The position numbers and the translations under genes are program-made. Shown here in pieces: positions 42,654 to 45,404 of a stretch of 64,000 nucleotides of DNA. This DNA is from Cloacibacillus sp. An23. GTDB lineage: Bacteria; Synergistota; Synergistia; Synergistales; Synergistaceae. A model generated the notes under the pieces. That model worked only from the letters and a program-made list of their open reading frames with translations. It was not told where the DNA came from and ran no database searches. The stretch lies in contig NZ_NFJQ01000002.1 in assembly GCF_002159945.1 (NCBI RefSeq), forward strand, positions 62,001 through 126,000, written 5' to 3'. Position 1 is the first letter of the stretch. Each line of letters opens with the position of its first letter.

Positions 42654-42998
42654 TTAAACAACTATAAACTCTCCGGTGCTGCAGTCTATAAGCCGAGCGT
42701 TCAATGCGTCCGATAAAGCCGCGAAGGCTTCGCATGGAGTCTCCCCGCCTCTGACATGCAGCATTATGGATTCGGCTTCCGTCTCCGCCCCAACGTTGAA
42801 TTCTATCGACCATCTGCCGCAGCCGAGATGCTGATATGACAAATCGTTGCAGTCGCAAGATACGCCGAGCTCTGCGGCGATATTCTTTACCGCCTCGGCT
42901 ATCTCCGTCTGTGCGAAAGGAACTATGTTTTCGCCGGCTATATTTTTCAGCGCTTCGTTGTTCGTCTTGGTCCTTACCATCACAACGTCCCAGCTCAT
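42654..42998 (-). CDS. Small soluble protein of unknown function
   Basis: A 114-residue protein, acidic, with no signal peptide or membrane helix. It starts MSWDVVMVRTKTN and has three Cys-containing stretches (VSCDCND, LGCGRWS, IDCSTG) but no classic CxxC pair. The GGRWSIEF-like segment (GCGRWSIEFNVGAE) and the even alternation of charged helices and strands suggest a small alpha/beta fold. GGGAG precedes the ATG at 42996-42998 at a good distance, which supports translation. It is the last gene of a minus-strand unit beginning with perR, 45 bases after the secreted protein gene. No family recognised. Confidence 0.7.
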   Translation of the reverse strand: MSWDVVMVRTKTNNEALKNIAGENIVPFAQTEIAEAVKNIAAELGVSCDCNDLSYQHLGCGRWSIEFNVGAETEAESIMLHVRGGETPCEAFAALSDALNARLIDCSTGEFIVV

Positions 42999-43043
42999 TC
43001 AAAAATCTCCCGCCGTCCGCGTAGGGTGCCAAAAAGCGTGCGC

Positions 43044-44141
43044 TCAGCGCCCGCCCTGAATCTCCTCTGTGAACGGATAATATATGCGCAGCTCCGTGAT
43101 TTCCCTCAGCGCATTGTCGTTTCTGCCCGCTGCTTCATGCAGACGTTCCCAGCCGCCGTTCGCGTAGCGAGCCAGGACGAGGGACTTGCGCCCGTATGAC
43201 GACCAGACGTCCCACAGCTTCTCGCCGCCCGCTGGGCCGGAGACGAGGCCGTGCTTGAAGAGCGGCGGCGTGCCGCCCATCTTCGATACTCCGTCGGCTG
43301 GGCCGATCACTAGCCACTGCGTCATGCTCCATACGCCCTGCATCTCCTTCGATGAGAGCGCGTGATCCCACGGCACTATCTGAAAGCCGCCGGTAGTGCC
43401 GCGCGGCGTAGTGCTGACGTCTATGACGCCGCTGTGGTTTGCCCGTATCGCTCCGACGCGCTGGAAGAGCGTGCCTTCGAAGCGTCCGGTTCCGCCGAGA
43501 GGAACGAGGACGCGTCCGAGAATTTTATATCCTGTCGAGTACCACGCGACGACGCGCCCGCCGGGGCGGTTTTCTATGTCTACCATATATGGCAGAGACG
43601 GGTCTTCGAATACTTCGATGACGAGCGTGTCGCCCTCCTTCGGCAGATTGTCCGCCGCCAGCGGCGCGGCGGTCCCGTCAGCCTTCCGTACCGTAACGCG
43701 CGAGCCGACGGCCGGCGCCCATGCGCCGAAGACGCTTTCTCCGGCCTTCGCGTCGAGCACTATCGATGCGCCCGGCCCGGCTGCGGGGGCTATGGTCTCT
43801 TTGGGGATCACGCTCAGAGTGCGCCCCTTGCCCTTTTCGACTGAGACCAGCATATGCACCGCGTTCACCGCCGACGCGCAGACGGAGCCGGGCTCGCCCC
43901 ACGCGCTCGCAGTGTAGCTCGGCCAGCGCGTCTTCGTAGGCAGCGCAGTTACACTTGCTATATTGAAGCTTTCGCCGCCGGCCGTCGTCACAGACACCTC
44001 GGCGCCTACTTGCATCGGAATGTCGATTTCAAAAATTTTCTTCGCCTCAGCCTCCGCCGCGTGCGCCGGAAGAAGCGCCGTACATACCAGAAGCGACGCC
44101 AAAGCGATAACAAGCGAATTTTTTAACTTCGGGAGATTCAT
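43044..44141 (-). CDS. Secreted protein of unknown function
   Basis: A 365-residue protein with a clear signal peptide (KLKNSLVIALASLLVCTALL, then PAHA before cleavage near residue 29). The mature part is rich in Gly, Val and Thr and looks all-beta. Repeated phrases such as VGAEVSVTTAGGESF, VGSRVTVRKADGT and EGDTLVIEVFED suggest beta-sandwich or SH3-like modules in residues 30-190. The C-terminal half has several Trp (GVWSMTQWLVIGP, KLWDVWSSYGR). There is no C-terminal sorting tail, lipobox or transmembrane segment, so it is probably periplasmic. AAGAAGG precedes the ATG. It follows the CPBP protease gene by 27 bases. No family recognised. Confidence 0.8.
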   Translation of the reverse strand: MNLPKLKNSLVIALASLLVCTALLPAHAAEAEAKKIFEIDIPMQVGAEVSVTTAGGESFNIASVTALPTKTRWPSYTASAWGEPGSVCASAVNAVHMLVSVEKGKGRTLSVIPKETIAPAAGPGASIVLDAKAGESVFGAWAPAVGSRVTVRKADGTAAPLAADNLPKEGDTLVIEVFEDPSLPYMVDIENRPGGRVVAWYSTGYKILGRVLVPLGGTGRFEGTLFQRVGAIRANHSGVIDVSTTPRGTTGGFQIVPWDHALSSKEMQGVWSMTQWLVIGPADGVSKMGGTPPLFKHGLVSGPAGGEKLWDVWSSYGRKSLVLARYANGGWERLHEAAGRNDNALREITELRIYYPFTEEIQGGR

Positions 44142-44168
44142 CGAAACCGCCTTCTTTAGATTGGATTA

Positions 44169-44702
44169 TTAGAATCTCACGGGCGACGGGAAAAACCATA
44201 TCGCCCAGATATTGCCGATAAAATGAAAGAGCGCCGGGGGAAGCAGGCTGCCGTAGCGGTACTTCAGCCATCCCATGACCAGCCCCGGGAAAAATGTGCA
44301 AAGCGATATCCAGTAGGGCGAGACGATGAGATGTACCGGCGCGAACACGAGGTTCGCCGCCGCTATCGCTGCGTAGGGGCCGAACCGCCTTTCGAGCACC
44401 GGCTGAAGCCAGCCGCGGAAAAAAGTTTCTTCTATTACCGCCGCCGCGAGACCCGAAGCCGCGAGTTCGAGAACGCTGCGCAGCCCGCGCCTTCTCGGCA
44501 GCTCCTCCCACGGCCACGCGAGCGCGGCCGCCGTGAGCACGGCGAGCACCACGGCGGCGACGGCGAGCGTCTCCGCGACGGCCCGCCTGTCCGCGCTCCA
44601 TCTGAGGCCATAAATTTCGGGGTCTTCCTTCCTGTACCAACACCAGAGATAAGGCCAGTACAGCAGAAAGACCCCGCTGCAAAAGGCTGCGAGAGAGCCC
44701 AT
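44169..44702 (-). CDS. CPBP-family glutamic intramembrane protease
   Basis: A 177-residue membrane protein with about five helices. Family motif 1 is EETFFRGWLQ (Glu91, Glu92, Arg96), motif 2 is the FAPVH segment (His124), and motif 3 is FHFIGN (His160, Asn164). These proteases (Rce1/CAAX type) cut near or in membranes. Small members without the usual extra helices serve as protein-sorting enzymes in several phyla, and a dedicated one (MrtS) is described for the Synergistota C-terminal sorting system; assignment to MrtS is only a guess. The gene begins 11 bases after perR and precedes the secreted protein gene. The ribosome site is weak, suggesting coupling to perR. Confidence 0.8.
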   Translation of the reverse strand: MGSLAAFCSGVFLLYWPYLWCWYRKEDPEIYGLRWSADRRAVAETLAVAAVVLAVLTAAALAWPWEELPRRRGLRSVLELAASGLAAAVIEETFFRGWLQPVLERRFGPYAAIAAANLVFAPVHLIVSPYWISLCTFFPGLVMGWLKYRYGSLLPPALFHFIGNIWAIWFFPSPVRF

Positions 44703-44713
44703 GCGTTATGAGG

Positions 44714-45139
44714 TTATATCTTCAGACAGTCGGAGCAGAGTCCGTAGAAAAATATTTCCGTGTGTTCTATCTGGGCTATGTTGTCGCGCACCGTCGAAGC
44801 CGAGCGGAAAATCTCGTCTTCGTTGACCGGAATGTCGAACAGCTTCCCGCACTTGCGGCAAAGAAAATGCCCGTGTGTCTCAGTTGCCGGGTCGAAATAA
44901 ACCCTTTTGTCGTCGATGCTGAGTATTTTTATGAGCCCGGCCTCAGCGAGCAGCTGCGCAGTGCTGTAAAGCGTCGCCACAGACATAGTTGAATACTCGG
45001 AGGAAAGCTCCTTGTACAGCGTCTCCGCGGAAGGATGGTCTTTGCGGCCCTCCAGCTTCTGAAGTATGGCTATGCGCTGGGCCGTTATTTTCGCGCCCCG
45101 CTCCCTTAATACCGAAATACCGTCATCTACAGTCCACAT
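44714..45139 (-). CDS. perR: Peroxide-responsive repressor PerR (Fur family)
   Basis: A 141-residue Fur-family regulator. The winged helix has TAQRIAILQKLE and TMSVATLYSTAQLL. The regulatory metal residues of B. subtilis PerR (His37, Asp85, His91, His93, Asp104) all have counterparts, shifted by two: His35, Asp83, His89, His91 and Asp102. The structural zinc Cys pairs are C94/C97 (CRKC) and C135/C138 (CSDC). PerR proteins sense H2O2 by iron-catalysed His oxidation. A perfect PerR box lies 32-46 bases upstream, pointing to autorepression. It heads a four-gene minus-strand unit with a CPBP protease, a secreted protein and a small protein. Confidence 0.88.
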   Translation of the reverse strand: MWTVDDGISVLRERGAKITAQRIAILQKLEGRKDHPSAETLYKELSSEYSTMSVATLYSTAQLLAEAGLIKILSIDDKRVYFDPATETHGHFLCRKCGKLFDIPVNEDEIFRSASTVRDNIAQIEHTEIFFYGLCSDCLKI

Positions 45140-45170
45140 CGTAAAACTCCCCCATAAGACTTTAAATGAT

Positions 45171-45185
45171 TATAATTATTATAAA
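45171..45185. promoter_or_regulatory. PerR box (operator of the perR unit)
   Basis: TTATAATTATTATAA is an exact 7-1-7 inverted repeat identical to the consensus TTATAATnATTATAA of PerR operators. It lies 32-46 bases upstream of the perR start codon on the same regulatory side, within an AT-rich segment probably including the promoter. Confidence 0.88.
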
Positions 45186-45283
45186 TCAATGCGGCGAGTT
45201 TGTCTTTACCGTCAAAGATAAAAATGTATTTTCTTTAACTCGCCGGTCAGAGATGCGGCCGCGGCGCAATAAGTTTTTCATAC

Positions 45284-45328: not shown

Positions 45329-45404
45329 TGGGGTGTAGCCAAGCGGCCTAAGGCAGCGGACTTTGACTCCGCCATCGATGGTTCGAGTCCATCCACCCCA
45401 GCCA
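45329..45404 (+). tRNA. tRNA-Gln (anticodon TTG)
   Basis: TGGGGTG (45329-45335) pairs perfectly with CACCCCA in the 3' acceptor strand; the D arm is TAGCCAAGCGGCCTAAGGCA, the anticodon loop is CTTTGAC with anticodon TTG, the T arm contains GGTTCGAGTCC, and discriminator G is followed by an encoded CCA. The U1-A72 pair is the known identity mark of bacterial tRNA-Gln. The glmU start lies only 48 bases downstream, with a six-T run between. Confidence 0.96.

Follow-up and report, generated by a model that had tools for sequence, protein, structure and literature searches.

A putatively self-regulated perR gene, an MrtS family protease gene, and a gene for a conserved exported protein probably share one site by independent descent in Cloacibacillus sp. 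An23

RESULTS AND DISCUSSION

General features of the locus. The locus of Cloacibacillus sp. An23 (Synergistaceae) described here is best explained as three independently descended genes at one site, namely, a perR gene that would regulate itself, mrtS, encoding a predicted sorting protease, and a gene encoding a separate exported protein, X365, and we give this reading a probability of about 0.7. The anatomy of the locus, the family membership of its products, and their co-occurrence and synteny across genomes are direct observations. The feature is real, and it is mostly a known protease beside a PerR that appears to be autoregulated; the genes around it are grouped loosely and in shuffled combinations, and do not look like a system dedicated to the peroxide response. 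The window, i.e., the whole stretch of DNA that was analyzed, comprises 64,000 nucleotides (GCF_002159945.1, NZ_NFJQ01000002.1, positions 62,001 to 126,000) and contains the following features:

45178-45206, minus strand: perR promoter, sigma-70-like, AAGACA-17-TATAAT, 10 of 12 consensus positions, a pattern match only
45170-45184, minus strand: PerR box TTATAATNATTATAA / TTATAATAATTATAA, exact consensus match
45161-45175, minus strand: second PerR box, overlapping the first in part, 2 mismatches
44714-45139, minus strand: perR, 141 amino acids, Fur family, predicted peroxide sensor (Pfam FUR, 9.8e-24)
44169-44702, minus strand: mrtS, 177 amino acids, predicted Synerg-CTERM system glutamic intramembrane protease (NF040589)
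43044-44141, minus strand: X365, 365 amino acids, secreted, signal peptide at about residues 1-28
42654-42998, minus strand: Y114, 114 amino acids, orphan open reading frame (ORF), genus restricted

The four ORFs lie on the same strand in the order perR, mrtS, X365, and Y114, with gaps of 11, 27, and 45 bases, exactly as an earlier note on this DNA had described. A tRNA-Gln (TTG) gene is located at 45329-45404, between perR and glmU. The first start codon of glmU (45363) falls inside this tRNA gene, and glmU must therefore start further downstream.

PerR and its box. The metal ligands H35, D83, H89, H91, and D102 are all present in PerR, in agreement with the earlier note (numbering of the window protein), and across 21 aligned loci none of them falls below 90% conservation; a structural Zn site is formed by C94/C97/C135/C138. 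The closest solved structure is that of Bacillus subtilis PerR (2FE3; PDB search, E value of 8e-24). The top NCBIfam match is the PerR model NF052545, with 118 bits against a cutoff of 180, a shortfall that weighs little because the NCBIfam PerR models look lineage specific. The protein resembles B. subtilis PerR in its metal ligands, its Zn cysteines, the box consensus, and the position of the box over its own promoter. Unlike in B. subtilis, the downstream gene here encodes a sorting protease and not katA, ahp, or rubrerythrin. The rbr1-perR-rbo operon of Clostridioides difficile is comparable in that perR is part of a regulated cluster of an anaerobe, but its partners there are detoxification enzymes, unlike those at this locus. 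A search of one literature library retrieved no work on PerR in Synergistota or on Synerg-CTERM.

With the PerR box consensus taken from reference PMC3953959, the perfect box ahead of perR was confirmed, one base away from the position first given for it (45170-45184 instead of 45171-45185), and it is the sole exact PerR box in the 2.9-Mb genome. Sites with up to 3 mismatches number 7 in the window versus 0.38 expected by chance, 3 of the 7 being overlapping registers at the perR box. The −10 element of the predicted perR promoter sits inside the box, and PerR would repress its own promoter through this overlap. PerR self-regulation is established (PMC8546684), and since PerR is known to control its own gene, a box ahead of perR is to be expected and gives no support to the envelope operon of which it had been taken as the mark. 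In related Synergistaceae, the box lies at −44 to −69 ahead of perR.

Elsewhere in the genome, there are three PerR boxes with 1 mismatch. One of them (L004:1501-1515) precedes a desulfoferrodoxin/superoxide reductase gene (1761-2150) by about 245 bp, which suggests that a canonical PerR regulon may exist in this genome. No obvious oxidative-stress gene is near the two remaining boxes, and the boxes close to rubrerythrins have 3 to 4 mismatches.

MrtS and its predicted substrates. The protein described earlier as a CPBP glutamic protease of 177 residues fits that description, and its sequence places it in a family that the earlier note had not named, the myxosortase-type MrtS proteins (NF040589). 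It matches this model over its full length, with residues 6-173 aligned to positions 2-169 of 170, and scores 240.5 bits against a cutoff of 130, i.e., 110 bits above it; the family belongs to the same phylum, and no difference from it was found. In an alignment of 69 sequences, the residues of the EExxxR and HxxxN motifs and H124 are near invariant (E91, E92, R96, H124, H160, and N164).

The genome encodes 14 Synerg-CTERM proteins (TIGR04564) scoring over the cutoff, all outside the window, and the search gave no match on the contig that carries the window. Their tails have a Cys-transmembrane (TM)-basic layout, e.g., GGGGGGCSAGFGALALFALIPLVLRKKK, with the signal GGGGGGC-SAGFG-hydrophobic-RRKK and an invariant Cys. 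Ten tagged proteins, nine of the 14 and one scoring below the cutoff (L061), were scanned for domains, and nine of the ten contain recognizable ones, including Big_2, GLUG, subtilase, papain plus lectin-like, and chitobiase-C-type domains. The presence of MrtS and that of Synerg-CTERM are tightly coupled in 188 Synergistota genomes, of which 123 have both, 3 and 16 have one of the two, and 46 have neither (Fisher P of 2e-26, uncorrected for phylogeny and genome incompleteness).

In Myxococcus, a MYXO-CTERM protein has been shown to lose its tail through cleavage by MrtX, for which the invariant Cys is required, and MrtX is necessary for normal surface localization (PMC11980579). The system of Myxococcus xanthus and that of the window have in common a CPBP protease with the EExxxR and HxxxN motifs and a target tail consisting of a Cys motif, a TM helix, and a basic end. 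They differ in protease subfamily and tag, and cleavage has been demonstrated for MrtX whereas it is proposed for MrtS by analogy. By this analogy, MrtS would cut the C-terminal membrane anchor off Synerg-CTERM proteins at or near the invariant Cys, and the anchor-free proteins could then reach the cell surface. Its substrates would be the approximately 14 large Big_2-, GLUG-, subtilase-, and papain-type proteins encoded elsewhere. A speculative peroxide-envelope system is thereby replaced by a testable picture, that of a sorting protease with listable predicted substrates, the 14 tagged surface proteins.

The gap between perR and mrtS is about 12 to 17 bp in the closest relatives of the window and about 250 to 715 bp in two other families. 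A gap of 11 to 17 bases makes co-transcription of the two genes likely in the genus and its close relatives, so mrtS is probably read there from the PerR-autoregulated promoter. No obvious ribosome-binding site precedes mrtS, which is consistent with translational coupling to perR, short of proof. Autoregulation of perR with read-through into mrtS is the most likely arrangement, and in one clade the transcription of mrtS may be linked to PerR.

The X365 family. X365, the signal-peptide protein of the earlier note, belongs to a family present in 160 of the 188 Synergistota genomes, and it has no sequence match in Pfam, NCBIfam, PHROGs, or PDB. All of the best 80 X365 loci from the collection of named genomes belong to Synergistota, 112 further loci were confirmed beyond those, and a search of plasmids gave no homologue. 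An alignment of 50 members, which share 43 to 74% identity with the window protein, contains 46 invariant columns, and the invariant polar residues include N93, H96, R220, Q227, R233, H236, Q254, H260, and E266. The AlphaFold2 model (pLDDT of 90.9 and pTM of 0.87) consists of a signal helix followed by a mostly beta structure. A Foldseek search with it against PDB and BFVD gave no match at an E value of ≤0.001, and the modeled fold is possibly new, as judged against these two databases alone. This conserved family, with no known relative or PDB/BFVD fold, is the novel element of the locus and the part worth pursuing. By eye, the two halves of the protein (residues 28-165 and 166-365) resemble each other, and an internal duplication was considered and rejected (HHalign P of 0.016, probability of 2.8%, and reversed control of 0.039). 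Some genomes encode three to four X365 paralogues (G124 and G173-G175), and G173-G175 are without MrtS.

The earlier note had the protease act on its secreted neighbor, and X365 was accordingly considered as an MrtS substrate and rejected. The C terminus of X365 (...LRIYYPFTEEIQGGR) has no Cys motif, TM helix, or basic tail, and 32 genomes contain X365 with neither MrtS over the cutoff nor a Synerg-CTERM match. X365 might instead be a working part of Synerg-CTERM sorting, e.g., in the periplasm, where it would modify the invariant Cys, bring substrates to MrtS, or pass cleaved proteins on to the outer membrane. The two proteins are positively associated in presence (both in 119 genomes; Fisher P of 9e-7), their genes are adjacent at most MrtS loci, also in genomes without PerR, and the numerous invariant polar residues from N93 to E266 would suit such a role. 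However, the same 32 genomes, 7 genomes with MrtS and no X365, the separation of the two genes in one genus, and the lack of an acyltransferase-like membrane part in X365 make such a role unlikely. A broader reading is, as a whole, rather unlikely too, namely, that X365 represents a hitherto undescribed and nearly phylum-wide family of exported proteins with a new fold and an undescribed active site, that it has a core function in the Synergistota envelope, and that in most lineages it acts together with MrtS in maturing surface proteins. Most likely, X365 does a separate job in the envelope, as an exported and mostly beta protein that would act independently of MrtS.

Neighborhood across Synergistota. 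The order that looks ancestral is prs-glmU (divergent), perR, mrtS, and X365, followed by convergent galU-glmM (and glmS in some genomes), with perR and mrtS coming and going at the glmU/galU site. Every partial combination of PerR, MrtS, and X365 was seen at this one site. Of 67 distinct MrtS loci, 52 have X365 downstream and 20 have PerR upstream; some of the others stop at a contig boundary. The best 80 X365 loci include 17 with PerR and not MrtS, 35 with MrtS and not PerR, 13 with both, 6 with neither, and 9 cut by a contig end. In 10 loci, PerR, X365, glmU, and galU are all present with no MrtS between them, and in 28 loci, MrtS-X365 occurs without PerR and without the flanking genes. In one genus, X365 follows PerR and mrtS is elsewhere in the genome. 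These counts do not support a conserved system of four genes, and the pattern fits three conserved genes of independent descent that would have come to share one site near glmU and galU-glmM. As a counterpoint, X365 directly follows MrtS in more loci (52 of 67) than would be expected for wholly unrelated genes, an adjacency that may reflect inherited synteny or, less probably, a functional link.

The fourth ORF, Y114, was found in 2 of the 188 Synergistota genomes, both of this genus. In its only relative, the match covers the first 60 residues, after which the frame is lost, a truncation by frameshift according to the DNA alignment. A place for Y114, an orphan, in a conserved unit was rejected.

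These comparisons bear on the proposal of the earlier note that derepression of PerR raises the protease, the secreted protein, and the small protein together in a peroxide-induced envelope response. The perfect box, the tight spacing on one strand, and the 1-mismatch box ahead of the superoxide reductase gene are in its favor. It is nevertheless improbable, since most sampled MrtS-X365 loci have no PerR upstream, Y114 is an orphan, and boxes with up to 2 mismatches ahead of perR are restricted to part of Synergistaceae, with none in the two other families examined. The order of the genes is variable across Synergistota and the box is not conserved, which is largely the outcome that the earlier note itself had named as speaking against such a unit. 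What is supported of that proposal is PerR, its box, the likely co-transcription of perR with the protease gene in the genus and its near relatives, and a role of the protease in the envelope or in protein localization; the envelope operon, the conserved system, the substrate link, and the small protein as part of the unit are not.

At some loci without mrtS, a small predicted membrane protein of 92 to 117 amino acids is encoded in its place beside X365, in genomes with no MrtS at the site:

L132:5637-5942: small predicted membrane protein beside X365
L138:5541-5894: small predicted membrane protein beside X365
L190:7419-7697: small predicted membrane protein beside X365
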